Shown one piece after another: positions 45,607-59,259 of a stretch of 64,000 nt of DNA. Every line of letters begins with the position of its first letter. Within the stretch, counting starts at the first letter, position 1. Below the pieces are notes generated by a model. The model had not been told where the DNA came from. It saw nothing but the letters and a program-made list of their open reading frames with translations, and ran no database searches. A program made the translations under genes and the position numbers. Source of the stretch: Anaerolineae bacterium (lineage in GTDB: Bacteria > Chloroflexota > Anaerolineae > Aggregatilineales > Aggregatilineaceae); NCBI GenBank assembly GCA_023382715.1, contig JAHDWP010000003.1, positions 1 to 64,000 of the forward strand, written 5' to 3'.

Positions 45607-46335
45607 CTACACCCCAGACACGTCCTCGGCCAGCGCCGTGATGCGCATGAACGCCTTTTCCTGAGGACTCATGTCGGGCGGGTAGATCGTGTCGTCGTAG
45701 GTCTCCAGGATGCGGTAGCCCTCTTTGACGTAGCTGCGCACTGTGTGCGGGCTGATGCCCATCTCGTCGGCGGCAAGCTCGGCGGACATCCCTTCGACGA
45801 CGCACAGTTGCAACGCCTGGCGGACGCGCTCCGTCAGCGCGGGATATTCGCGGCGCTCCGGCACGACAGCCGCCCGGAAGAGCCGCCCCCCGAACTCATC
45901 CCTGAGCGCGTCTTTGACGCCCTGCGTGACGACGAAATCGTGATCCTGCGCCCAGATGATGGCGGAGGCGATGCGGATGCGCAGCTCATTGCGCAGCAGA
46001 TAGCCGTTCACCTGGACCTGCTCGCAGGCGTGGAGCGTCTCCAGGCTCAGCTTGCGGTCGAGCACCAGCGTCATCACGTGTGGGATCGTCTGCTCGATCT
46101 CGCCGATCAACCGGGCCAACTCCGCCGGCGTGCTGGCCGCCTGCGCGTCGAGCAGCACCACGTCTGGCCATTCGGATTCGTCCACTGCGCGCACGTAGTC
46201 CCGCACGGAGTCCAGCGTATCGGCCAGGTGCACGACGCGCGTGCGCCTGTCCCAGGCCAGGTAGCTGTTGATGGCCTGGCGAGCGTAGAAGTCGGTGTCG
46301 AGCACGAGCACTTTGAGGTTTGTCCTGGGGGGCAT
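45607..46335 (-). CDS. NarL/LuxR-type response regulator
   Basis: This 242-residue protein has a receiver-like N-terminus (LKVLVLDTDFYARQAI, DVVLLDAQ with the likely phospho-acceptor Asp) and a C-terminal HTH (LTERVRQALQLCVVEGMSAELAADEMGISPHTVRSYV). The ATG follows GGAGGGG. No partner kinase is adjacent. It could regulate the divergent aromatic operon or the acyl-CoA cluster, but nothing in the sequence shows which. Confidence 0.83.
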   Translation of the reverse strand: MPPRTNLKVLVLDTDFYARQAINSYLAWDRRTRVVHLADTLDSVRDYVRAVDESEWPDVVLLDAQAASTPAELARLIGEIEQTIPHVMTLVLDRKLSLETLHACEQVQVNGYLLRNELRIRIASAIIWAQDHDFVVTQGVKDALRDEFGGRLFRAAVVPERREYPALTERVRQALQLCVVEGMSAELAADEMGISPHTVRSYVKEGYRILETYDDTIYPPDMSPQEKAFMRITALAEDVSGV

Positions 46336-46600
46336 GGCGTTCCCCTCCTGGGCGGCATACGCGATTCCGCTGAGCGGCTCGCCCGGTCATTGCATGAGGC
46401 CAAGTGTACCACAGCCTTCGCTCCGTCACGTCTGGCGGGTGTGCATACAGGTTGACAGCGACGCGCGCCAGCGCCGAGCGGGGGGGAGGTCCGCCAGGGG
46501 GCAGGGCCTTCTGCTGCGCCAGGCTTCGCGCGCCCGCGCGCGCCCAGGCCTCGCGCCCCCCGGCTGTTCGAGCAATCGGCCAACCGGCCAATTCGGGTTG
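46336..46600. other. Intergenic region upstream of the aromatic operon promoter
   Basis: It contains a fragment of the GCGAGGCGCG-type palindromic repeat (about 46464-46495) and GC-rich low-complexity sequence. No gene is supported. Confidence 0.5.
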
Positions 46601-46630
46601 TTGACAAGTCCCGCCACCCTGTGCTACAGT
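46601..46630 (+). promoter_or_regulatory. Sigma-70-type promoter of the aromatic operon
   Basis: A perfect TTGACA (46601-46606), an 18-bp spacer and TACAGT (46625-46630) sit 24 bp upstream of the leader peptide start. It is one of the best promoter matches in the window. Confidence 0.82.
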
Positions 46631-46653
46631 GGGCCTGTCATTGGGAGAGACAC

Positions 46654-46785
46654 ATGACTGGCACGCAGCCCCACACCTGGCCACAAACAAGCCCCAGCAG
46701 CGCCTGGGTCTGGTTTGGCTTCTATTATTTTGGTGGCGGCCATAGGGCAGGTTGGAGCGTGCCTTCTGCCAGTGTCACAGGGTAA
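46654..46785 (+). CDS. Aromatic leader peptide (attenuation sensor)
   Basis: This 43-codon reading frame starts ATG with GGGAGAG upstream and ends TAA. Codons 18-26 encode WVWFGFYYF, and Trp also occurs at codons 9 and 34, so nine or so residues of a short peptide are Trp, Phe or Tyr. Phe and Tyr use TTT and TAT in a GC-rich genome where TTC and TAC are common, which should favour stalling. It is followed by an intrinsic terminator and the chorismate/aromatic genes. Ribosome stalling at low charged tRNA(Trp/Phe/Tyr) should allow read-through into aroH. Translation and regulation are inferred from sequence only. Confidence 0.88.
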   Translation: MTGTQPHTWPQTSPSSAWVWFGFYYFGGGHRAGWSVPSASVTG

Positions 46786-46825
46786 TCCCTGACAAAACCC
46801 GAAGACACAGGGCGCTGAGCACCAA
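46752..46825 (+). promoter_or_regulatory. Candidate antiterminator pairing of the aromatic attenuator
   Basis: TTGGAGCGTGCCT (46752-46764), 20 nt past the aromatic codons, can pair in blocks with the terminator arm and loop: CCU with AGG, AGCG with CGCU, UUGG with CCAA. Bulges make it weaker than the ilv equivalents. A competing hairpin TGTCACAGGG / CCCTGACA (about 46774-46793) may also take part. Confidence 0.45.
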
Positions 46826-46841
46826 GCTCAGCGCCCTTTTT
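46810..46841 (+). terminator. Attenuator terminator of the aromatic operon
   Basis: An 11-bp GC-rich perfect stem (GGGCGCTGAGC / GCTCAGCGCCC) with loop ACCAA is followed by TTTTT. It lies 24 bp past the leader stop codon and 40 bp before aroH. Confidence 0.93.
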
Positions 46842-46880
46842 CGTTATCGGCGCAACGCCAACCAGAAAGGAGTCCGCGCC

Positions 46881-47282
46881 TTGACCGCAACGCAGTCCAG
46901 CCGGCCCATCCGTTGCCAGGGAGTGCGCGGCGCGATCACTGTCCCGGCCAACACCGCCGCCGCCATCCGCGAAGCCACGCACGAACTGCTGCGCGCGCTG
47001 CTGGCGGCCAACCCGATCGTCCCGGAGGACATCGGCGGCGCGTTCTTCACTACCACGCCCGATCTCACCGCCGAGTTCCCCGCCGTCGCCGCGCGCGAGT
47101 TGGGGTGGACGGACGTGGCCATCCTGTGCGGGCACGAGATGAACGTTCCCGGCGCGCTGCCGATGTGCCTGCGCGTGCTGCTGCTGTGGAATACGACGCG
47201 CGCGCCCCATGAGATTCAGCATGTGTACCTACGCGAGGCGCAAGCCCTGCGTCCCGACCGCGCGGTGAACACGCCCGCCTAG
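46881..47282 (+). CDS. aroH: Chorismate mutase, AroH type
   Basis: The TTG at 46881 is chosen because AAAGGAG lies 8 bp upstream; an upstream frame overlaps the leader and terminator and is discarded. The 133-residue protein matches the trimeric AroH fold: RGAITV near the N-terminus, [22 protein letters not shown], the active-site CGHEMNV (Cys, Glu), [11 protein letters not shown] (catalytic Arg) and [13 protein letters not shown] (Tyr). It converts chorismate to prephenate and feeds the tyrA and pheA branches in the same cluster. It is the first structural gene after the aromatic attenuator. Confidence 0.93.
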
Positions 47283-47332: not shown

Positions 47333-48364
47333 ATGATCGTCGTCATGAACGTCAACGCCAGCGCCCGCGAAATCTCCGATGTCATCGCCCGCATCCGCGC
47401 CATGGGCTACGACGTGCACCTGTCGGAAGGCAAAGAGCGCACGATTATCGGCGTCATCGGGCGCGGGCGGCCCATTGACCGCGAGCAGATCGCCCTGATG
47501 TCCGGGGTGCAGTCGGTGATGCCGGTCACCCACCCTTACAAGATCGCCAGCCGCGAGTACCATCCCGACGACACGCTCGTCCCGCTGGACGGGATCACGG
47601 TCGGCGGGCCGGACCTGGCCATCATCGCCGGGCCGTGCTCAGTGGAGAGCCGCGAGCAGATCATCGAGACGGCGCACGCGGTGCGCGAGGCCGGGGCGAC
47701 GGCCCTGCGCGGCGGGGCGTTCAAGCCGCGCTCATCGCCCTACGCCTTCCAGGGCCTGGGCGAGGAAGGGCTGCGCTACCTGGCCGAGGCGCGCGAACAG
47801 ACCGGGCTGCCCATCGTCACCGAGGTGATGGACCCGCAGCTTGTCCCGCTGGTCTGCCAGTACGCCGACGTGCTGCAGATCGGGGCGCGCAACATGCAGA
47901 ACTACACGCTGCTGCACGCGGTGGGCGAGAGCCAGCACCCCGTGCTGCTCAAGCGCGGCATGAGCAGCACTATGGAGGAATTGCTCATGTCCGCCGAGTA
48001 CATTCTCAGTCACGGCAACATGCGCGTCATGCTCTGCGAGCGCGGCATCCGCACCTTCGAAACCTACACGCGCAACACGTTCGACATCAACGCCATCCCC
48101 GTGCTCAAGCGCATCTCGCACCTGCCGGTCATCGCCGATCCCAGTCACGGCGTCGGCAAGTGGGAATACGTGGAGAGCGTCTCGCTGGCAGCGATCGCCG
48201 CTGGCGCGGACGGGCTGATCCTGGAGGTGCATCCGCAGCCGGAGATGGCCCAGTCGGACGGGCAGCAGTCGCTCAAGCCGGAGCGTTTCGCCGCGCTGGT
48301 AGCCAGGCTGCGCCAGCTTGCGCCCATAGTCGAGCGGCAGGTCCCCCAGCCGCAGCGGGTATAG
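47333..48364 (+). CDS. aroF: 3-deoxy-7-phosphoheptulonate (DAHP) synthase, type I-beta with regulatory domain
   Basis: This 343-residue protein has an N-terminal ferredoxin-like (ACT-like) domain (residues 1-70) joined to the KDO8P/DAHP TIM barrel. Barrel motifs: [64 protein letters not shown] and [11 protein letters not shown]. It condenses PEP with erythrose-4-phosphate, the entry step. The N-terminal domain in this subtype binds Tyr or Phe as feedback inhibitor, so the step is likely controlled both by attenuation and allosterically. AGGAGAG precedes the ATG. Confidence 0.94.
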
Positions 48365-48368
48365 CGCA

Positions 48369-49229
48369 ATGGAGGCTTCCTTCAGCGCCTGCACGGTGCA
48401 CGTGATCGGCCTGGGGTTGATGGGCGGCTCGCTGGCCATGGCTCTGCGGGGTCAGGTGGGGCGCATCGCCGCCGAAGACATCGCCCCCGACGTGATCGCG
48501 GACGCAGCGGCGCACGGTATCATTGACGGGCCGGGCACCTCTCAGGAAGCCGACATCGTGGTGCTGGCCACGCCCGCGCACGCCATCCTTGACCTGGCTC
48601 CGCGGCTTGCGCTGCGTCCGGGGACCCTGGTGATAGACCTGGGCAGCACCAAGACGCGCATCTGCCAGGTATTGGATGGCTTGCCGCCGGGCGTGCTGGC
48701 TGTGGGCGGGCATCCCATGTGCGGCCTGGCCGAGAACGGCTACGCCCACGCCATCCCCACGCTGTACCGGGGCGCGCGCTTCGTGCTCTGCGAGACACAG
48801 CGCACCACCGCCGAAGCGCGCCTTGTCGCCGAGACGCTGGTGCGGGCGGTCGGCGCGCAGCCGTTGTGGATGGATCGCGCCCGCCAGGATCGGCTGACGG
48901 CGCTGACCAGCCACCTGCCGCACCTGCTCTCCTTCGCCCTGATGCGCCTGGCGATGGACGGCGCGGCAGAAGACCCGGCGCTGCTGGAGCTGGCGGCGGG
49001 CGGCTTCGACGGGGCGACCCGCCTGGCCCGCACCGACGCAGCGATGATCGTCGGTATGTTCAGCACCAACGCCGATCAGCTTCGCCGGGCCGCCGCCGAG
49101 CTGCGCGCCCACCTGGATCGCCTGGACGCGATCCTGGCCGATGTCGGCGCGCTGGAAGACGAATTGGGGGCGATTGTGGCGGCCCGGCGCGCCTACACGG
49201 CTGGCTATGGGGAGCGGTTAATCACATGA
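48369..49229 (+). CDS. tyrA: Prephenate dehydrogenase
   Basis: This 286-residue protein has a Rossmann start (HVIGLGLMGGSLAMAL), IDLGSTKTRIC, VGGHPMCGLAENG (substrate His) and the C-terminal helical domain with TALTSHLPHLLSFAL. It oxidatively decarboxylates prephenate toward tyrosine. No ACT domain is present. Its last ~40 bp are part of a 233-bp tandem duplication. It starts 4 bp after the DAHP synthase stop. Confidence 0.93.
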   Translation: MEASFSACTVHVIGLGLMGGSLAMALRGQVGRIAAEDIAPDVIADAAAHGIIDGPGTSQEADIVVLATPAHAILDLAPRLALRPGTLVIDLGSTKTRICQVLDGLPPGVLAVGGHPMCGLAENGYAHAIPTLYRGARFVLCETQRTTAEARLVAETLVRAVGAQPLWMDRARQDRLTALTSHLPHLLSFALMRLAMDGAAEDPALLELAAGGFDGATRLARTDAAMIVGMFSTNADQLRRAAAELRAHLDRLDAILADVGALEDELGAIVAARRAYTAGYGERLIT

Positions 49230-49604: not shown

Positions 49605-50924
49605 ATGAACGGCGCATCAACGACAATCCGCGTCCGCCCTGGTGCGGCCCTGCGCGGGGCGGTGCGCGTCCCCGGCGACAAGTCGCTCTCGCACCGCGCG
49701 CTGATCCTGGGCGCGCTGGCTGAGGGGGCAAGTCACGCGCGCGGCTGGCTGCCCGCCGGCGACACGCTGGCAACGCTGGGCTGTGTGCGGGCGCTGGGCA
49801 TCGCGGTCGAGCAAGAGGACGCGACAACCCTCACCGTGCACGGGCGCGGGTTGGGCGGGCTGCGTGCGCCCACTGCCCCGCTGGACTGCGGTCACGCGGG
49901 GACGGCCATGCGCCTGCTGGTGGGCGTGCTGGCCGGGCAGCCCTTCGCCAGCACGCTCGACGGCAGCGCGCAGCTTCGCCGCCGCCCGATGCGCCGCATC
50001 ACCGGGCCGCTGCGCCAGATGGGGGCGCAGATCGCCGACACGGACGGGCGCGCACCGCTGCACTTCCGCCCGGCAGCGCTGCGCGGCATGGCCCACACCT
50101 TGCCCGTCGCCAGCGCGCAGGTCAAAAGCGGGCTGCTGCTGGCCGGGCTGTTCGCCGACGGGCCGACGACGGTCACCGAGCCGGGGCCGGCCCGCGATCA
50201 CACCGAGCGTATGCTGCGGGCGATGGGCGCGGGCGTGACGACCGACGGCTTCAGCGCAACGCTGACCCCCGGCCCAGCGCTGCGCCCGCTCGACCTGACC
50301 GTGCCCGGCGACCTCTCTTCGGCGGCTTTTGTGCTGGCGGCGGCGCTGCTGGTGGGCGGCGGCGAGGTGCGCGTGAACAGCGTGGGCGTCAACCCGACGC
50401 GCACCGGCCTGCTGGACATCCTGGCGGCGATGGGTGGCCCCGTGACCGGGGAGCGCGAGCGGCTGGAAGGGGGCGAGCCGGTGGCCGATCTGCTCGTCCG
50501 GCGGGCGGATCTGCGCGGGACAGAGGTGGGCGGCGACCTGATCGTGCGCGCCATTGACGAATTCCCCGCCCTGATGGTGCTTGCTACGCAGGCGGCGGGC
50601 GAGACCGTCGTGCGCGACGCGGCAGAGCTGCGCGTCAAGGAGACGGATCGCATCGCGGTGATGGCCGGGGAGCTGCGCAAGCTGGGCGCGCAGATTGACG
50701 AGCGCCCGGACGGGTTCCGCATCGTTGGGCCGCAGCGCCTGCGCGGCGCAGTCGTGCAGGGGCACGACGATCACCGCGTGGCGATGGCCCTGACCGTCGC
50801 CGGGCTGGTCGCCGACGGCGAGACAGTGATCGAGGATGCCGCCTGCGCCCACGACTCGTTCCCCGGCTTCGTCGAAACCATGCAGGCCCTCGGCGCGGAG
50901 ATGGACTGGTGCGATCATGACTGA
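49605..50924 (+). CDS. aroA: EPSP synthase (3-phosphoshikimate 1-carboxyvinyltransferase)
   Basis: This 439-residue protein has the motifs VPGDKSLSHRALIL, DCGHAGTAMRLLVG, ASAQVKSGLLLAGL, DLSSAAFVLAA, RAIDEFPALMVLA, LRVKETDRI and GHDDHRVAMAL, covering both domains. The glyphosate-site segment reads CGHAGTAMRL, whereas the common class I form is GNAGTAMRPL. The ATG at 49605 is the second copy of the duplicated start region. The stop overlaps the aroE start by 8 bp. Confidence 0.95.
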   Translation: MNGASTTIRVRPGAALRGAVRVPGDKSLSHRALILGALAEGASHARGWLPAGDTLATLGCVRALGIAVEQEDATTLTVHGRGLGGLRAPTAPLDCGHAGTAMRLLVGVLAGQPFASTLDGSAQLRRRPMRRITGPLRQMGAQIADTDGRAPLHFRPAALRGMAHTLPVASAQVKSGLLLAGLFADGPTTVTEPGPARDHTERMLRAMGAGVTTDGFSATLTPGPALRPLDLTVPGDLSSAAFVLAAALLVGGGEVRVNSVGVNPTRTGLLDILAAMGGPVTGERERLEGGEPVADLLVRRADLRGTEVGGDLIVRAIDEFPALMVLATQAAGETVVRDAAELRVKETDRIAVMAGELRKLGAQIDERPDGFRIVGPQRLRGAVVQGHDDHRVAMALTVAGLVADGETVIEDAACAHDSFPGFVETMQALGAEMDWCDHD

Positions 50925-51762
50925 GCAGGTGGGGCTGCTCGGCTGGCCGGTGGCGCACAGCGTCTCCCCGGCCATGCACAACGCGGTTTTCCGCTATCTG
51001 GGGCTGGACTGGCGCTACGACCTGCTGCCCGTCCCGCCCGATCGGTTCGCCGAGGAGGTGACGCGGCTGATCGCGGCAGGCTATCGCGGCTTCAACGTGA
51101 CCATCCCCCATAAAGCGGCGGCGCTGGCTCTGCCCCAGGTGAAGTCAATCACCCCGGCGGCGCGAATCCTGGGCGCGGCCAACACCCTGGTCGTGCAGCC
51201 GGACGGGACACTGCACGCTGACAACACCGACTGGCGAGGCTTCACCGCCGATTTGCTGGCACAGAAAGTGGCCGTCGCCGGTGCGACATGCCTGGTGCTG
51301 GGCACGGGCGGGGGCGCGCGCGCGATCCTCTACGCGCTGGAACGCCTGAGCGCGGCGAAAATTGCGCTGGTCAGTCGCGCGCCGCGCCCGCAGGCCGCTG
51401 GCGGGCCGCTGCTGGCGGGCTGGCCGGTCGCGGGCTACGACGACCTGGCCGCGCTCGCGCCCGCCGCCGATCTGATCGTCAACTGCACGCCGGTGGGCAT
51501 GTTCCCCCACGCGGATGAGTCGCCCTGGCCGCCGAAGGTACCTTTCCCGCCTGGCGCTGTGCTGTACGACCTGGTCTACACCCCCCCCACGACGCGGCTG
51601 ATGCGCCAGGCGGAAGCAGCGAGGGGGCGCGCGCTTGGCGGGCTGGGGATGCTCGTCTGTCAGGGGGCGCTGTCGTTCGAGCAGTGGGTGGGGATCGGCC
51701 CGCCGCTGGTTATAATGGCAGGGGCGGCCCAGGCCGCTGTGTGGGGTTCTGCACGCGACTAA
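50917..51762 (+). CDS. aroE: Shikimate dehydrogenase
   Basis: The ATG at 50917 gives 281 residues beginning MTEQVGLLGWPVAHSVSPAMHNAVF. Motifs are FNVTIPHK (catalytic Lys), GAANTLV, NTDWRGF (Asp), VLGTGGGARAILYAL (NADP site), NCTPVGMFP and YDLVYTPPTT. It reduces 3-dehydroshikimate. An IS200/IS605 element lies directly downstream and separates it from tyrS. Confidence 0.94.
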   Translation: MTEQVGLLGWPVAHSVSPAMHNAVFRYLGLDWRYDLLPVPPDRFAEEVTRLIAAGYRGFNVTIPHKAAALALPQVKSITPAARILGAANTLVVQPDGTLHADNTDWRGFTADLLAQKVAVAGATCLVLGTGGGARAILYALERLSAAKIALVSRAPRPQAAGGPLLAGWPVAGYDDLAALAPAADLIVNCTPVGMFPHADESPWPPKVPFPPGAVLYDLVYTPPTTRLMRQAEAARGRALGGLGMLVCQGALSFEQWVGIGPPLVIMAGAAQAAVWGSARD

Positions 51763-51769
51763 TGAAATG

Positions 51770-51960
51770 AAAGAGTGAAGCGGTGACGACTCTCCCCGCT
51801 AAAGCAGGGAGCTTTCCAGAGCACGCGCGCCGCAACCGGCCACGTTACGCCCTGGCGGCCCCGTCCGGGCCGGATTGACCGCACACATCAGGATATTCCG
51901 AGCGGCATTCACGTCACGGTCAAGCGTGAGACCGCAGTCAGGACAAACATGTACGCGAAC
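51770..51960 (-). ncRNA. Candidate omega RNA (reRNA) of TnpB
   Basis: In IS200/IS605 elements the TnpB guide RNA comes from the 3' part of tnpB and the right end, with the guide taken from flanking DNA. Here the right-end hairpin and the tnpB stop coincide at about 51799-51811. The expected guide would start just outside the element near 51770. The position is inferred and not resolved to the base. Confidence 0.4.
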
Positions 51961-52974
51961 GCTCAACTCCTTCTGGACGACCACACCACAGGCCGAGCAC
52001 GCCTGCGAGGTGTAGGCGGGGTTCACGGTCACCACCAGCGTACCAGCTTCTTCCGCTTTGTACGCGAGCAGTTGTTGGAACTCCGCCAGCCCCGCGTCGT
52101 GCGCGCTGAGGGCGAGGTGGCGATTGGCCGTCATGAAGGCGAGCGTCAGGTTTTCGAGAGCGATCAGGCTGTAGGTATCCGCCAGCTGGCGGGTGAGCTT
52201 GTGCCAGAAGTCGCGGCGCTGGTTGGCCACCCGCTCATGCAGGCGCGCGACCTGCGCGGCGGCTTTGCGGCGATGCGCACTGCCCTTCTGCCGCCGGGAC
52301 AGGCGGCGCTGCGCGACGCGCAGTTGGGCGAGGCTCTGACGCAGCCAGCGCGGGTTTTCGACCAGCGTTCCGTCGCTGAGCGCCAGCAGGTGCGCCAGCC
52401 CCATGTCAATCCCGACTGCCGGGCCGGTGCGCTCTGGGATGACCGGATCGGGCAGGTCGAGCATCAGGCAGACGTGCCACTTGCTGGCCCGGCGCTTGAT
52501 GACCACGTGCTTAATCGTTGCGTCGTCAGGCAGCGGGCGGTGGAACTTGACCTTGACCTCGCCCGCGTTCTGGACGTAGAACATGGTACGCGCGCCGAGC
52601 CGCAGCTTGCACCCGTCGCCGTGCCGGTATTCCAGGCTGTGGAAGCGGTCACGCCCTTTGAAACGCGGAAAGCCGGGCTTCTCGCCCGCTTTCAGGCGGC
52701 GGAAGAAGGCGGCAAACGTCTTGTCGAGGCGGCGGAGCATCTGCTGGACGCTGGTCGCGTTAAGCTGGCCGAGCGTGTCGGGATTGGCATGGCGCAGGTC
52801 GCGGAAGTGCGCCCACTGTTGCGGATAGCTCACGCCCTTGCCAGTCTCGCGGTAGACGGTGATGCGCTGTTCGAGCGCGGCGTTGTAGAGCGTGCGCCCC
52901 TGCCACAGCAGGAAGTCAAGCGCCCGCGCCTGCGCGTTCGTCGGGTACAGCCGGTAGCGGTAGGTACGGATCAC
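51799..52974 (-). CDS. tnpB: RNA-guided endonuclease TnpB
   Basis: This 391-residue protein has an N-terminal HTH (YRYRLYPTNAQARALDFLLWQGRTLYN), RuvC Asp in GIDMGLAHLLALSDG, Glu in IALENLTLAFM, a zinc ribbon CSACG...CPDCG and the final Asp in LDRDVNAARNIL. All three catalytic acids and four Cys are present, so it looks active. The stop codon lies inside the right-end hairpin. Confidence 0.94.
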   Translation of the reverse strand: MIRTYRYRLYPTNAQARALDFLLWQGRTLYNAALEQRITVYRETGKGVSYPQQWAHFRDLRHANPDTLGQLNATSVQQMLRRLDKTFAAFFRRLKAGEKPGFPRFKGRDRFHSLEYRHGDGCKLRLGARTMFYVQNAGEVKVKFHRPLPDDATIKHVVIKRRASKWHVCLMLDLPDPVIPERTGPAVGIDMGLAHLLALSDGTLVENPRWLRQSLAQLRVAQRRLSRRQKGSAHRRKAAAQVARLHERVANQRRDFWHKLTRQLADTYSLIALENLTLAFMTANRHLALSAHDAGLAEFQQLLAYKAEEAGTLVVTVNPAYTSQACSACGVVVQKELSVRVHVCPDCGLTLDRDVNAARNILMCAVNPARTGPPGRNVAGCGARALESSLL

Positions 52975-52977
52975 GCG

Positions 52978-53367
52978 CTATTGCCCCTTCTGCTCGTCAA
53001 GGTACCGCTTGATTGTCGCGGCGCTGACATGACCCGCCGTGCCAATGTAGTACGAGCGCGTCCAGAGCGAGGGCAAGCGACTCTTCAGGTGCGGAAACTC
53101 TTTCCGCAGTTGGTGGCTGGTCGAGCTTTTCAGCCGGTGCATGATTTGGCTAATCGCCAATGTCGGCGGGAACGAGGCGAACAGGTGTACGTGGTCTGGC
53201 ATCACAACCAGGTCAAACAGCTCGCCATCGAGTTCCCGAACGTATTCAGGCAGCAATTCGGCCAGACGCGCACCCACAGCGCCTTCCAGGACTGGACGCC
53301 GGAACTTGGGGCACCAGACGAGGTGGTAGTTGATGTCGTAGGTTGCGTGCCGAGTTTGTTTGCTCAT
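52978..53367 (-). CDS. tnpA: IS200/IS605 transposase TnpA (Y1 HUH)
   Basis: This 129-residue protein has NYHLVWCPKFRRPVL, the HUH motif in MPDHVHLF and the catalytic Tyr in the YYIGTAGHVSAATIKRYLDEQ helix. It is full length with both active-site parts intact. It lies 3 bp upstream of tnpB. Confidence 0.95.
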   Translation of the reverse strand: MSKQTRHATYDINYHLVWCPKFRRPVLEGAVGARLAELLPEYVRELDGELFDLVVMPDHVHLFASFPPTLAISQIMHRLKSSTSHQLRKEFPHLKSRLPSLWTRSYYIGTAGHVSAATIKRYLDEQKGQ

Positions 53368-53447: not shown

Positions 53448-53454
53448 AATTTCT

Positions 53455-54750
53455 ATGGAACAGGTGAAAACCGCAGAGAATCTCTTCGAAGAGCTGCGCT
53501 GGCGCGGCCTGATTTACAACGCGGCGGAGGGTGCCGAAGAAGCCCTGGCCCGCGAGAAGGTGACCGCCTACATTGGCTTCGACCCGACCGCCGACAGCCT
53601 GCACATCGGCTCGCTGCTGCCGATCATGGTGCTGGTGCATCTGCAGCGGCACGGCCACACGCCGATCGCCCTGGCCGGCGGTGGCACGGGGCTGATCGGC
53701 GATCCCAGCTTCAGGGCCAAAGAGCGCCAGTTGCTGTCCCAGGAGCAGCTCGCTTACAACCTGGAGGGGATCAAGGCCCAGCTTGCCCATTTCCTGGCTT
53801 TCGAGGGGGTGCCTAACCCGGCGCTGCTGCTCAACAACGCCGACTGGCTGTGCAAGCTCAACCTGATCGAGTTCCTGCGCGACATTGGCAAGCACTTCAC
53901 CGTCAACTATATGATGGCCAAGGACTCGGTCAAGACACGGCTGGAGGGCGAGGAAGGCTTGTCGTTCACCGAGTTCAACTACATGCTGCTGCAAGCCTAC
54001 GACTTCCTGCGCCTGTACCTGGACTACGGCTGCACCTTCCAGATGGGCGGCAGCGACCAGTGGGGCAATATCACCGCCGGCACCGAGCTGATCCGCCGCG
54101 TCGTTGACGGCAAAGCCTACGCCCTCACTGTGCCGCTGATCACCACCTCGACCGGCGTCAAGTTCGGCAAGACCGAGGCCGGGACCGTCTGGCTCGACGC
54201 CCGGCGCACGTCGCCGTTCCGCTTCTACCAGTACTGGCTCAACACGACCGACGCCGATGTGGTGCCGTACCTGAAGTACTTCACGCTGCTGGATCGCGAC
54301 GAAATCGCCGCGCTGGAGCGATTCGTGGTCGCCGAGCCGCACCTGCGGGCCGCGCAGCGCCGCCTGGCCGAGGAAGTCACGCGGGCGGTGCACGGCGAAG
54401 ACGGCCTGCGCAAGGCGCAGCAGGCGACTGAAGTGCTCTTTGGCGAGCGCGACCTGGAAGGGCTGAGCGCCGACGACCTGCTCGATATCTTCGCCGAGGT
54501 GCCGTCCAGCGCTGTGCCCGCGCACGACCTGGGGGGCGAGGGGCTGAGCCTGGTTGACCTGGCCGTGACATGCGGGCTGGAACGTTCCAAAAAGCAGGCG
54601 CGCACCCTGATCGAGAGTGGCGGGCTGTACCTGAACGCAGCTCGCACAGACGATGTGGAGCGGCGTGTCACCCTGGCCGACGCCATCGAAGGGCGCGTCA
54701 TCGTCCTGCGCAAGGGCAAGAAAGGCTATCACCTGGCGCGGGTGGAGTAG
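53455..54750 (+). CDS. tyrS: Tyrosyl-tRNA synthetase
   Basis: The ATG at 53455 gives 431 residues; a GTG at 53434 is possible. Class I motifs: [33 protein letters not shown] and KFGKTE (KMSKS equivalent). A C-terminal S4 domain runs from [20 protein letters not shown] to the end. It charges tRNA(Tyr). Its position inside the aromatic operon puts Tyr activation under the same attenuator, which itself reads Tyr codons. No Shine-Dalgarno is visible because IS sequence abuts the start. Confidence 0.94.
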
Positions 54751-54842: not shown

Positions 54843-54946
54843 GGCTCACAGGGCGCCGCTCTGCTGCGCCCCTACGCGACTGTTCTCGCTGATCGCTGAC
54901 CGCCGACCGCTGAAAGCTGATGGCTGATAGCTCTTTCGGAGGAACT

Positions 54947-56128
54947 GTGCTGCGTTTTCTCACTGCGGGCGAAAGTCACGGCCCGGCGCTGACCGGCATC
55001 CTGGAAGGGATGCCCGCCGGCGTCCCGCTGACGCCCGCCGACCTCAACCGCGACCTGGCCCGCCGCCAGACCGGCTACGGCAGCGGCGGGCGCATGCAGA
55101 TCGAGCGCGACCGGGCGCGCATCACCGGCGGGGTGATGAACGGGCGCACCACCGGCGGGCCGATTGCCCTGGTCATTGAGAACCGCGACTGGAAGAACTG
55201 GGCGGAGCGCGACATCCCACCCATGACCACGCCGCGCCCCGGCCACGCCGACCTCACCGGCGCGCTTAAGTACGGCTACCGCGATCTGCGCCTGGCCCTG
55301 GAGCGGGCCAGCGCCCGTGAGACGGCGGTGCGCGTGGCCATCGGCGCGATCGCCCGGCGGCTGCTGGCTGAGTTCGGCATCACGGTGGGCGGCTATGTGA
55401 CGGCCATCGGCGCGGAGATGGCGCACTTCGCCGACGATCCGCCCGACTATCCGGCCCGCTTCGCCGCCGCGCTGGAATCCGACGTGAGCTGTCCCGATGC
55501 GCAAGCCGCCGAACAGATGCGCGCGGCCATCCGCCAGGCCAAAGTGGACAAAGACACGCTCGGCGGGATCATCGAGGTCGTGGCGCTGGGGCTGCCGCCC
55601 GGCCTGGGGTCGCACGTCCACTACGACCGCCGCCTGACGGGGCGGCTGGCCGGAGCAGTGTGCAGCGTGCCGAGCATCAAGGGCGCGGAGATCGGCCCGG
55701 CCTTCGCCAACGCCCGCCGCCCCGGCACGCAGGTCCACGACCAACTGGCGCTGGGCGAGGACGGGCGCATCCGCCGGACGAGCAACCGCGCTGGCGGGCT
55801 GGAAGGCGGCATGACCACCGGCGAGCCGCTGATCGTGCGCGCGGCCATGAAGCCGATCAGCACCACGCTGACGCCGCTGGAGTCGGTGAGCCTGGCGGCG
55901 GGGACGCCCGCGCATACTGAATATGAGCGCAGCGATTTCTGCGCCACGCCGCGCGCAGTGGTCATCCTGGAGAGCATGGTCGCCTTCGTGCTGGCCGACG
56001 AGCTGCTGCGCAAGCTGGGCGGCGACAGCCTGGACGAGCTGCGCCCGCGCTGCGCCGCGCTGCGCCAGGCGCGGCTGGACGACCTGCCGATGGACGACGT
56101 GCCCTGGCGCTTCGGCTATGAGGTGTGA
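54947..56128 (+). CDS. aroC: Chorismate synthase
   Basis: A GTG at 54947 with GGAGGA just upstream matches the conserved LRFLTAGESHGPALTGILEG start and gives 393 residues. The in-frame ATG at 54920 would add nine residues. Further motifs: RRQTGYGSGGRMQIE, GRTTGGPIAL, RPGHADLTGALKYG, RASARETA, SNRAGGLEGGMTTGEP and CATPRAVVILESMVAF. It removes phosphate from EPSP using reduced FMN. A palindromic repeat begins right at its stop. Confidence 0.95.
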   Translation: MLRFLTAGESHGPALTGILEGMPAGVPLTPADLNRDLARRQTGYGSGGRMQIERDRARITGGVMNGRTTGGPIALVIENRDWKNWAERDIPPMTTPRPGHADLTGALKYGYRDLRLALERASARETAVRVAIGAIARRLLAEFGITVGGYVTAIGAEMAHFADDPPDYPARFAAALESDVSCPDAQAAEQMRAAIRQAKVDKDTLGGIIEVVALGLPPGLGSHVHYDRRLTGRLAGAVCSVPSIKGAEIGPAFANARRPGTQVHDQLALGEDGRIRRTSNRAGGLEGGMTTGEPLIVRAAMKPISTTLTPLESVSLAAGTPAHTEYERSDFCATPRAVVILESMVAFVLADELLRKLGGDSLDELRPRCAALRQARLDDLPMDDVPWRFGYEV

Positions 56129-56256: not shown

Positions 56257-56775
56257 ATGACAGGGGTCCCTCACAACCTGGTCCTGGCCGGCTTCATGGG
56301 GACGGGCAAGAGCACCGTCGGGCGCCTCGTCGCCGGGCGGCTGGGCCTGGCTTTCGTGGACACCGACGCCGCGATCGAGCGGCGGGCGGGGCGGAGCATC
56401 GCGCAGATTTTCGCCCAGGATGGCGAGACGGCCTTCCGGCGCATTGAGGCCGAAGTCTGCCGCGAGATCGCTGCCGGGCGGGACCAGGTGATCGCGGTGG
56501 GCGGCGGCGCGCTGCTCGACGACTCCGCGCGCCGCGCCTTCGCCCAGAGCAGCCTGATCGTGTGCCTGACCGCTTCGCTCGACGAGATTTTGCGGCGGGT
56601 GGGCGACGACCCGGCGCGGCCCCTGTTCAGCGCCGACCGCGAGCGGTTGGCGGCGCTCTGCGCGGCGCGGGCGGCTCATTACGCCAGCCTGCCGCACGCG
56701 GTGGACACGACTGCCCGCACCCCGGCGGAGATCGCCGAGGAGGTGATGCGCCTGTGGAACCAGCCTCGATCCTGA
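56257..56775 (+). CDS. aroK: Shikimate kinase
   Basis: This 172-residue P-loop kinase has Walker A GFMGTGKSTVG, FVDTDAAIERRAG (shikimate/Mg site), FRRIEAEV, AVGGGALLDD and DPARPLF near the lid. It phosphorylates shikimate at O3. The 3' end overlaps the aroB start by 22 bp. Confidence 0.94.
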   Translation: MTGVPHNLVLAGFMGTGKSTVGRLVAGRLGLAFVDTDAAIERRAGRSIAQIFAQDGETAFRRIEAEVCREIAAGRDQVIAVGGGALLDDSARRAFAQSSLIVCLTASLDEILRRVGDDPARPLFSADRERLAALCAARAAHYASLPHAVDTTARTPAEIAEEVMRLWNQPRS

Positions 56776-57818
56776 CCATCCAGGGCGCGGACGAAGCGTA
56801 TCCGGTGGTGATCCAGCCCGGCGCGCTGGCCGAAGCGCTGCCCGCGTTCGTGGGGGAGCGGCGCTTCTCGCGCGTGGCCGTGATCAGCAACACGATCGTC
56901 GGCCCGCTCTACGGCGAGGCGCTGGCCGCCCGCCTGCCGGACGCTTTTCTGATCACCGTGCCGGATGGCGAGGCGCACAAGACGTTGGGCACAGCCACCG
57001 CGCTTTACGGCGAGCTGCTGGCGGGCGGCTGCGATCGCTCGTCGCTGGTCATCGCGCTGGGCGGCGGGGTGATCGGCGACCTGGCCGGCTTCGTCGCGGC
57101 GACTTTCATGCGCGGCGTGGCCCTCATCCAGGCTCCCACCAGCCTGCTGGCCATGGTGGACGCCAGCCTGGGCGGCAAGGTGGGCGTGGACCTGCCCCAG
57201 GGCAAGAACCTGGTTGGCGCGTTCAAAGACCCGCTGGCCGTCTTCGCCGACAGCGCGGCGCTGCACACCCTGCCGCCGGTCGAGCGGCGCTGCGGCCTGG
57301 CCGAAGTGCTCAAGGCCGGGCTGATCGCCGATCCGCCGCTGGTGGAGCGCCTGCTGGCGAGCGAGCCGCCGCCCATCGAGGACGTGATCGCGCGGGCCGT
57401 GCGCGTCAAGAAGCAGGCCGTCGAGCAGGATCGGCTGGAGCGCGGCACGCGGGCCTACCTGAACCTGGGTCACACCTTCGCCCACGCCATCGAAGGGGTC
57501 AGCGGCTACGCCTGGAAGCACGGCGAGGCGGTGGCCCTGGGCCTGGTGGCGGCGGCGCGCCTGTCTGTGCAGCGCGGACTGGCCGCCCCCGATCTGGCCG
57601 CGACAGTCGAGCAGGCGGTGACGGCGCTGGGCCTGCCCGCGCGCTACGCCGGGCTGGACCCCGCTGCCCTGTGGGACGCCATGCGCCACGACAAGAAGTT
57701 TCGCGGCGGGAGCGCGCGCTTCGTGCTGCTGCGCGCGACCGGCGATCCGTGCGTGGCCGATGACGTGCCGCGCGACGCGGTGATCGCCGTGCTGGAGTCG
57801 CTGCGGGAGGGGCCATGA
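56754..57818 (+). CDS. aroB: 3-dehydroquinate synthase
   Basis: A GTG at 56754 is chosen because GAGGAGGTG lies about 10 bp upstream inside aroK and the conserved fold begins at once ([18 protein letters not shown]). The product has 354 residues. Motifs: [70 protein letters not shown] and KHGEAVALG. It converts DAHP to 3-dehydroquinate using NAD and a divalent metal. The stop overlaps aroQ. Confidence 0.93.
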
Positions 57819-58243
57819 ACATCCTGATTTTGCACGGGCCGAACCTCAACCTGCTGGGAGCGCGCGAGCCGGAGGTCTACGGCAGCCTGACGCTGGACGC
57901 GATCAACGCGCGGCTGGAAGACTACGCGGCGGGGCACGGTGCCGCGCTGCGCATCACCCAGAGCAACCACGAGGGCGCGCTGATTGACGCGCTGCACGCG
58001 GCGCGCGGCTGGGCGGACGGGGTGATCCTCAACCCCGGCGGCTACACGCACACCAGCGTCGCCCTGCGCGACGCGCTCAGCGCGGTCGGGCTGCCGGCCA
58101 TCGAGGTGCACCTGTCGAACATTCACGCCCGCGAGCCGTTCCGCCACACTTCGCTGATCGCGCCGGTCTGCCTGGGGCAGATCAGCGGGCTGGGCTGGCT
58201 GGGCTACCGGCTGGCGCTGGAGGCACTGCTGGAGAGAGGGTGA
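57815..58243 (+). CDS. aroQ: 3-dehydroquinate dehydratase, type II
   Basis: This 142-residue protein has [21 protein letters not shown] (catalytic Arg and Tyr), [50 protein letters not shown] (catalytic His). These define the dodecameric type II family. It overlaps aroB by 4 bp. Confidence 0.95.
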
Positions 58244-58413: not shown

Positions 58414-59259
58414 ATGGGCGAGCGCATTGTCGCCTTCCAGGGCGAGCACGGTGCGTATTCGGAAGAAGCGATCCACCGCCAGTTCGGCGAGGATACGAAG
58501 ACCCTGCCCTGCGAGACCTTCGCCGAGGTTTTCGCGGCCATCCAGCGCGGGCGGGCGACGCACGGCATGGTCCCGGTCGAGAACGCGCTGGCCGGGACGG
58601 TCTTCCAGGTCTATGAGCTGCTGATCGAGCACGATTTCCGTGTGCAGGCCGAGCACCTGCTACCGATCACCCACCACCTGCTCGCGCCAGAAGGCACAGC
58701 GCTGGAAGATGTCAAGCGCGTCATGTCGCACCCGCAGGCGCTGGCCCAGTGCGCCGACACCCTGCACCGGCGCGGCTGGGAGCCGGTCGCCACCTATGAC
58801 ACGGCGGGCGCGGCGCGCGCCCTGGCCGAGCACCCGGAGGCGCACACGGCGGTCATCGCCTCGGCGCTGGCGGGCCGGCTCTACGGCCTGGCCGCGCTGG
58901 ACAGCGGCCTGGAAGACGACCCCGGCAACTCGACGCGCTTCTTCGCCATCGGCGCGGACGATGCCCAGCGCCGCGACCCCAGCAAAACCTCGCTGGTCTT
59001 TGCCGTGCGGCATCGCCCGCGCGCGCTCTACGACGCCCTGGGCACGTTCGCCCTGCGCAACATCAACCTGACCAAGATCGAGTCGCGGCCCATGCGCGGG
59101 CGAGCCTGGCAATACTGGTTCTACCTCGACTTCGAGGGCCACTGGCGCGATTCCGCCGCCGAGGCCGCCCTGGTAGACCTGCTGCGCCAGGCTTCGATGG
59201 TCAAGATGCTGGGGTCGTACCCGGCGGCGCTGGGCGGGCCAAACACGGGCGGCGCGTGA
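58414..59259 (+). CDS. pheA: Prephenate dehydratase with ACT domain
   Basis: This 281-residue protein has a PDT domain (about residues 1-185) with FQGEHGAYSEEAI, VPVENALAGTVFQVYELL, HPQALAQC and NSTRFFAIG (catalytic Thr-Arg-Phe). A C-terminal ACT domain follows with GTFALRNINLTKIESRPMRGRAWQYWFYLD, the Phe-binding ESRP site. It makes phenylpyruvate and is probably inhibited by Phe. There is no fused chorismate mutase, consistent with separate aroH at the operon start. It is the last aromatic gene. Confidence 0.94.
   Translation: MGERIVAFQGEHGAYSEEAIHRQFGEDTKTLPCETFAEVFAAIQRGRATHGMVPVENALAGTVFQVYELLIEHDFRVQAEHLLPITHHLLAPEGTALEDVKRVMSHPQALAQCADTLHRRGWEPVATYDTAGAARALAEHPEAHTAVIASALAGRLYGLAALDSGLEDDPGNSTRFFAIGADDAQRRDPSKTSLVFAVRHRPRALYDALGTFALRNINLTKIESRPMRGRAWQYWFYLDFEGHWRDSAAEAALVDLLRQASMVKMLGSYPAALGGPNTGGA

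Follow-up and report, generated by a model that had tools for sequence, protein, structure and literature searches.

The question raised by this locus is whether a short reading frame rich in aromatic codons and a terminator, which together precede a long row of aromatic biosynthesis genes, form a regulatory switch, and which amino acids such a switch would read. In the window, by which we mean the whole stretch of 64,000 nt analysed here, the leader is followed by the genes aroH-aroF-tyrA-aroA-aroE-tyrS-aroC-aroK-aroB-aroQ-pheA (Table 1), named from NCBIfam and Pfam family matches. The first-pass annotation had described this cluster as making all three aromatic precursors, which holds for the chorismate, Phe and Tyr branches and not for Trp, trpE being located on another contig. 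The shikimate row is split between aroE and tyrS by an IS200/IS605-type pair of TnpA (Y1 transposase) and TnpB on the minus strand (51799-53367).

The same annotation had placed a 43-residue leader containing WVWFGFYYF before a terminator, and this is borne out at 46601-46841, where a promoter is also present. The stretch 46200-47100 contains one promoter-like site, where shuffles would lead one to expect 0.1, and TTGAC-type elements similar to it precede many of the relatives' leaders, as judged by eye and uncounted. The leader peptide (MTGTQPHTWPQTSPSSAWVWFGFYYFGGGHRAGWSVPSASVTG; ATG at 46654, TAA at 46783-46785) is encoded by a short frame with its own start and its own ribosome-binding site, is predicted to be translatable and has counterparts in relatives. 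Its control codons match amino acids made by the operon, and the terminator sits between the leader and aroH, close after the leader stop. The terminator stem consists of 12 pairs, nine of them G-C, and the first T of the five-T tract doubles as the last base of the stem. The 211-nt leader RNA as a whole folds far more strongly than shuffles (z -5.25). Judged by its anatomy, the element is very probably a classical ribosome-mediated attenuator with aromatic control codons, a reading to which we assign a probability of roughly 0.88. On the other side of the leader promoter, and adjoining it, lies a divergent regulator-like ORF on the minus strand (45607-46335), with a sigma-70 region 4 or LuxR-type HTH towards its C-terminal end.

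Table 1. Leader elements and downstream genes in the window, with the basis of each assignment
Feature	Position	Strand	Basis
Promoter-like site, TTGACA-18 nt-TACAGT, TG before the -10	46601-46630	+	Sequence scan
Leader ribosome-binding site, GGGAG	46643-46647	+	Sequence
Leader peptide ORF, 43 codons + TAA	46654-46785	+	ORF; counterparts in relatives
Possible segment 1, GGCACGC, complementary to 46757-46763 (GCGTGCC)	46660-46666	+	Weakly conserved in relatives
Control codons W-V-W-F-G-F-Y-Y-F, leader codons 18-26	46705-46731	+	F/Y run conserved, W facultative
Segment 2, 5' half of proposed antiterminator, inside leader ORF after the run	46752-46776	+	Fold with terminator 3' arm held open; permutation tests in relatives
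Segment 3, proposed partner of segment 2, overlaps terminator 5' arm and loop	46804-46825	+	Fold with terminator 3' arm open
Intrinsic terminator; stem 46809-46837, T tract 46837-46841	46809-46841	+	Hairpin scan
aroH, chorismate mutase, TTG start	46881-47282	+	TIGR01796 over cut-off
aroF, DAHP synthase	47333-48364	+	NF006421, TIGR01361 over cut-off
tyrA, prephenate dehydrogenase	48369-49229	+	Family E 2e-46, below equivalog cut-off
aroA, EPSP synthase	49605-50924	+	TIGR01356 over cut-off
aroE, shikimate dehydrogenase, start approximate	50905-51762	+	Best E 5.5e-63, below equivalog cut-off
tyrS, tyrosine--tRNA ligase, start approximate	53452-54750	+	TIGR00234 over cut-off
aroC, chorismate synthase	54920-56128	+	TIGR00033 over cut-off
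aroK, shikimate kinase	56257-56775	+	E 3.5e-43, below equivalog cut-off
aroB, 3-dehydroquinate synthase, start approximate	56769-57818	+	TIGR01357 over cut-off
aroQ, type II 3-dehydroquinate dehydratase	57815-58243	+	TIGR01088 over cut-off
pheA-type prephenate dehydratase	58414-59259	+	PF00800 E 3e-58

Recurrence was assessed in the upstream regions of aroH from the window's family (15 of its 18 genomes have AroH), from its order (138 of 154 genomes) and from 80 named records. The order loci read in detail number 71 (L002-L072) and come from 70 of the 138 AroH genomes, one genome being represented twice, with the remaining order genomes covered through an RNA model alone. The named records are the best-scoring 80 of at least 593 loci, so that their share is no census of the phylum; by title they are mostly Chloroflexota (Chloroflexus, Roseiflexus, Oscillochloris, Ardenticatenaceae, Anaerolineae, Dehalococcoidia), with a few deltaproteobacterial or unplaced records, and in 58 of the 80 aroF lies within 300 nt after aroH. 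Removal of 18 near-duplicates from 151 upstream regions left 133 unique ones. Under a strict rule, a short ORF had to contain four or more W/F/Y within nine codons, with an intrinsic terminator following the run at a distance of 15-160 nt. This rule was passed by 89 of these 133 and by 4 of their 1330 dinucleotide-shuffled versions, ruling out a chance ORF; with five of nine W/F/Y the figures are 84/133 and 1/1330. Among control upstream regions from the window's family, 1/15 passed at trpE and 0/12 at pheS, the 12 having been scanned from 20 pheS loci, most others of which are second pieces of the same genes. Conservation of the aromatic run, which the first-pass annotation had named as a check, is found, and the pattern that it had set against its proposal, DNA kept with the frame lost, did not occur: the reading frame and its run persist as the DNA around them changes. 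Both synonyms are used for each of the main residues (TTT 276, TTC 93, TAT 195 and TAC 141 in 110 runs). An RNA model of the 3' half of the element, built from 16 sites including the window's own, has the window site as its single match in that genome (E 3e-24, the site being one of the training sequences) and finds matches in 113 of the 154 order genomes at E 0.01 or better, not all of them at aroH.

The 44 upstream regions that were not called fall into three kinds. In 21 an aromatic run is present and the hairpin or T tract lies outside the strict terminator rule; these near-misses are L009, L010, L017, L024 and 17 named records, 15 of them titled Chloroflexales or its genera, and hairpins are visible by eye in the former four and in all 13 of the named near-misses displayed. 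In the Chloroflexus-type leaders (L120, L121, L146 and other Chloroflexales) the run gives way to a common coding stretch, TGGTCGCTTCGC, and then to a strong hairpin, and the imperfect T tract (TCTGTTTG and similar) may make termination efficiency doubtful. Leaders of this general kind occur in records titled Chloroflexus and Roseiflexus, genera of which cultured members exist. In a further 16 uncalled loci trpA lies at most 260 nt upstream of aroH, against 0 of the 89 called loci, and none of the called attenuators lies within 260 nt behind either trpA or trpG; in these 16, aroH appears to end a trp operon. In one of them (L046) a weak leader can be made out by eye, and the RNA model has a match there (G089:C202). 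Neither an aromatic leader with terminator nor a nearby trpA was found in the remaining seven (L124, L154, L158, L178, L179, L186 and L187, the upstream region of L186 being only 217 nt long), four of which carry an ORF with four aromatics in nine codons and no terminator, taken as chance.

The spacing of the parts is narrow over the 89 called loci. The run, of 5-12 residues, ends 41-87 nt before the terminator (60-82 nt in 78 loci), and the stop codon precedes it by 18-61 nt (20-35 nt in 72 loci). Between the two lies a segment complementary to the terminator loop and one of its arms, examples of such pairs being GAGCTTG/CAAGCTC, GAGTTTG/CAAACTC, GGTGTGAGGC/GTCTCACACC, GGGCGTTATC/GATAACGCCT and TTTGGTTGCTTCGCGTT/AGCGTGAAGCAACCAAG; this segment 2 starts at a median of 18 nt past the run and ends at a median of 12 nt before the stop. 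The mean helix score between segment 2 and the terminator is 18.92, compared with 15.83 (sd 0.31, maximum 16.97) in 2000 swaps among loci, 17.31 (sd 0.30, maximum 18.37) in 2000 swaps within groups, where the groups are families and the 27 called named loci are pooled as one group, and 15.01 (maximum 15.81 in 300) with segment 2 shuffled. Mean duplex energy behaves likewise (-27.8 native, -23.15 swapped, minimum -24.36 in 2000). An unbroken helix of at least seven pairs is available in 56 of the 89 loci, and in 84 the RNA up to the incomplete terminator folds so that segment 2 and the terminator half share four or more pairs. This recurrence, the tight spacing and the complementarity beyond swaps render extremely improbable the alternative of no regulation at all, in which a constitutive terminator or spacer would stand beside a chance ORF that is not translated, although many operons do begin after terminators.

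The complementarity is a property of the 89-locus set and not of each site. Taken singly, 15 of the 89 loci surpass 95% of the swaps made at the same locus, and at the median locus 21% of swaps do equally well; the window alone is non-significant, with a best unbroken helix of 15.0 against a shuffled-segment mean of 15.01 and with 13% of swaps equalling its duplex energy, and its antiterminator is predicted to be a bulged structure. Within the window's family a 7-pair helix shows one double change, 59 of 500 shuffles being as good, and in the terminator stem a single pair has double changes. The idea that one conserved antiterminator helix serves the whole family was rejected, since three helix columns break down in 6, 3 and 4 of the 16 rows, the window's genus being among the failures at the first. 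Pairing of the possible segment 1 with segment 2 is weakly supported, its native score of 17.93 being reached in 1 of 2000 swaps among all loci and in 28 of 2000 within groups. Folding energy of the full-length RNA was dropped as proof of a switch, as it yields the terminator state only: all four folds of the window (from 46637, 46729, 46747 and 46795 to 46842) contain the terminator, and the fold from 46747 has -44.7 kcal/mol compared with -24.7 when the terminator 3' arm is held open. The switch would consequently need co-transcriptional (kinetic) timing, which is assumed here.

From the parts, their spacing and conservation, and the complementarity that the set shows beyond swapped controls, we infer ribosome stalling, the switch itself and the sensing of each amino acid, which would proceed as follows. 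Transcription would start slightly after 46630 and a ribosome would begin the leader. With ample charged Phe, Tyr and Trp tRNAs it would reach the stop at 46783 and cover segment 2, so that the terminator would form and most transcripts would end before aroH. Were one of the aromatic tRNAs poorly charged, the ribosome would halt within the control codons, leaving segment 2, which begins 20 nt past the run, free to pair with segment 3; this pairing would break the terminator and the operon would be transcribed. It is the position of segment 2, after the run and before the stop, that would let a ribosome halted in the run free it and a ribosome at the stop cover it, as judged from the size of the ribosome footprint.

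Two other ways of sensing amino acids need to be weighed. T-boxes (RF00230) sense tRNA charging and need no translation, so that a T-box or another riboswitch with a fortuitous ORF might in principle take the place of the attenuator, the more so as aromatic genes of this phylum do use T-boxes, at trpE. The window, however, gives no Rfam match at the gathering threshold, and its frame and aromatic codons are conserved, which leaves this reading hardly credible. Neither RF00230 nor any curated Rfam amino-acid leader (Trp, Phe and similar) matches the window leader, while trpE loci match RF00230 as a positive control, and a relaxed Rfam search of 46590-46900 returned two weak matches only, to lncRNA and IRES models, far below thresholds. 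Alternatively, the aromatic peptide might stall the ribosome upon binding a free amino acid or metabolite, as in nascent-peptide arrest leaders of the TnaC type, and the codons would then not read tRNA charge. A run of bulky residues could indeed slow elongation, and certain residues recur after the run in family f1 (H-x-x-G-x-S-L in several leaders), but these overlie segment 2, and one leader (L016) reads that stretch in another frame with the DNA kept, an assembly error being possible there. The length, order and F/Y/W make-up of the run moreover vary over 110 leaders, unlike an arrest motif, and we regard peptide arrest as very unlikely.

By its sequence features, then, the element very probably belongs among the classical leader-peptide attenuators. 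Those of E. coli known as trpL, pheL and pheST each respond to a single aromatic amino acid and stand before one branch or a synthetase, and the multivalent attenuator of E. coli ilvGEDA, reportedly described by Lawther and Hatfield in 1980, has a leader that mixes codons of several branched-chain amino acids made by its operon. With the former three the window leader shares a leader ORF, control codons, a terminator and, as predicted here, an alternative hairpin, but it precedes the shared trunk and mixes aromatic codons; with ilvGEDA it shares the principle of one leader carrying codons of several operon products, these being branched-chain and not aromatic in ilvGEDA. An attenuator with a leader named AroR, in front of aroF of Corynebacterium glutamicum, is said to go back to Neshat et al. 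in 2014. In the accessible text of the sources its motif is given as F-Y-F (PMC11802643, PMC4046766), so that the first-pass generalisation of one amino acid per classical aromatic attenuator holds only in part; the E. coli trpL, pheL and pheST attenuators are named there too (PMC11802643). According to the same text, aroF transcription in C. glutamicum rises under Phe limitation and Tyr is without response (PMC11802643), and this reportedly silent Tyr codon means that the presence of a codon is no proof of sensing. As described in those excerpts, AroR resembles the window leader in being an aromatic-codon leader peptide before a DAHP synthase gene and differs from it in having a three-residue motif without Trp and in belonging to another phylum. 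Leaders of the window type, for their part, have the longer run given above, stand at aroH and recur over a phylum.

As for Chloroflexota, a survey of 2010 states in the portion available that its authors knew of demonstrated leader-peptide systems in Proteobacteria and Actinobacteria only, a list that it extends to Firmicutes (PMC2965389). A paper of 2016 places Chloroflexi with the groups whose genomes were too few for a judgement (PMC4833913), a survey of 2013 mentions T-boxes in Chloroflexi (PMC3766115), and a survey of Actinobacteria from 2005 reports that conserved RNA structures are missing upstream of Phe and Tyr operons in that group (PMC1262725), each in the excerpts accessible. In the accessible parts of the literature on attenuation and leader peptides in Chloroflexi, Chloroflexus and Roseiflexus no description of the element was found, an earlier mention (e.g. 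in Panina 2001 or Lopatovskaya 2010) being possible, and the similarly accessible wider literature on aromatic attenuation yielded no case other than AroR and the E. coli attenuators. Multivalent (ilv) and F-Y-F (AroR) attenuators are thus already known, and what would be new is the mixed aromatic variant recurring in Chloroflexota. If the attenuator reading is true, classical leader-peptide attenuation would extend to a phylum for which no such description was found in the literature searched, and the shared trunk of a branched pathway would be coupled to several end products by a single RNA switch.

Which amino acids the attenuator would read can be approached through the composition of the run in 110 leaders. 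Of their 909 run residues 754 are W, F or Y (F 369, Y 336, W 49); F and Y are near-universal and W is present in 34 of the 110 runs, the corresponding counts by other definitions being 26/89 in the F/Y-defined zone and 32/89 in the run plus four codons. Within the window's family, 10 of 16 runs contain W, and genera there that lack it keep F and Y. The mixed Trp/Phe/Tyr sensor of the first-pass annotation is accordingly supported in part: Phe and Tyr codons are the conserved component, and Trp codons are facultative across the family of leaders. The facultative W invites the view that this is a Phe/Tyr attenuator with incidental Trp codons, in which only Phe, perhaps Tyr, limitation would alter read-through. 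That Trp has its own T-box at trpE favours this view, as does AroR, reported in the accessible text to answer to Phe and not to Tyr (PMC11802643). Against it, W is enriched in the zone formed by the F/Y cluster and the four codons upstream, where it makes up 38 of 489 non-F/Y residues compared with 32 of 2800 elsewhere (odds ratio 7.3, a figure that ignores relatedness); in the same zone G, a common spacer, is enriched 1.8-fold and H, I, L and C are depleted. W also recurs in separate lineages, including Roseiflexus (YFFWFWYF), W-x-W followed by F/Y occurs with varying x in six of the 11 genera giving loci in the window's family, and three aroF leaders carry W. Incidental Trp, being a variant inside the attenuator reading with odds that overlap its own, seems to us a serious possibility that falls well below even odds. 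The Phe and Tyr codons are best called the general signal of these leaders and Trp a recurrent optional addition in the window's and some other lineages, and for the window leader itself we lean slightly towards Trp being sensed too.

Trp shortage would probably also have a separate sensor on its own branch, given the T-box at trpE. In the window's own genome trpE lies behind a T-box over the Rfam threshold (L083), as it does in all three family loci tested, that one included, and in 18 of 20 order loci. T-box and leader-peptide attenuator hence occur in the same genomes as two systems on separate branches of one pathway. The presence of W was also compared with gene neighbourhood: W occurs in 3 of 21 leaders with trp genes upstream (L022, L041, L049) and in 28 of 61 for which at least 1400 nt of upstream sequence showed no trp gene (Fisher 0.010, ignoring relatedness, with seven short-upstream loci omitted and L038 assigned by hand from L279). 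As this contrast follows whole families and has exceptions, with the G032 aroF leader (below) outside the count, it is a lead only.

Leaders at other genes bear on whether the codons are fitted to the gene behind. Thirteen further RNA-model matches were opened, of which five are aromatic leaders by rule, one, at tyrS, is a leader by eye, and seven resemble unrelated terminators. Scanning of 20 aroF upstream regions gave three leaders, one of which (L260) is really an aroH leader, and the RNA model added those of G147 and G148. The aroF leader reads WAWFGFYYFF in G147 (L216, C434) and YGWAWFGFFYFTY in G148 (L215, C25), where a methyltransferase-like ORF lies between the W/F/Y leader and aroF; in G032 it reads YYYFYFWYSF, with trpG 319 nt upstream, and in G095 a leader without W, YCSYYF, precedes a second aroF. 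The aroH leader of G148 (L066) is FYYSYFGYY, without W, and the contrast with its aroF leader is weakened because a second aroF (C183:7054-8061) accompanies that aroH (C183:8167-8526). At tyrS, which in the window's family sits inside the aro operon, one leader was found in 29 upstream regions scanned from 30 loci. It belongs to the stand-alone tyrS of G150 (L222, G150:C19:120200-122500, minus strand; also L238), where a Tyr-only leader, MLRNSNLYYYSKAIRVSMARVSGR (YYY), and a terminator lie directly upstream and a segment GAGCATG is complementary to CATGCTC of the terminator, so that it looks like a Tyr version of the same attenuator; the aroH leader of that genome is YAYFFYFYW.

These few cases are a lead, not proof, that codon make-up may follow the needs of the gene behind. 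Taken furthest, they would point to a retunable OR gate throughout the phylum, in which a shortage of any of the Trp, Phe or Tyr tRNAs is sensed at the shikimate trunk with codons fitted per gene (YYY at tyrS, W/F/Y at some aroF, mostly F/Y at aroH, and less W near upstream trp genes), beside the Trp T-box on the trp branch. We hold this extension tentatively, at a little under even odds. If it is true, one pathway would be governed by two unrelated sensors of tRNA charge, and the natural series of leaders (YYY, F/Y, W/F/Y) offers ready variants for asking how codon make-up sets the starvation that is sensed, the OR gate included. In one genome the two sensors may even act in series: at L279 (G092:C230:39000-51500, family f6) trp genes, trpE to trpA by eye, precede the aroH attenuator in the same orientation, and as the trpE of this genome has a T-box (L198), a T-box trp operon may read into the leader-peptide attenuator. 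A separate observation concerns three genomes of family f2 that are more than 90% complete (G018, G019 and G021), in which trpE was not found and aroH follows a W-less F/Y leader (L060, L057 and L067); these are possible Trp auxotrophs.
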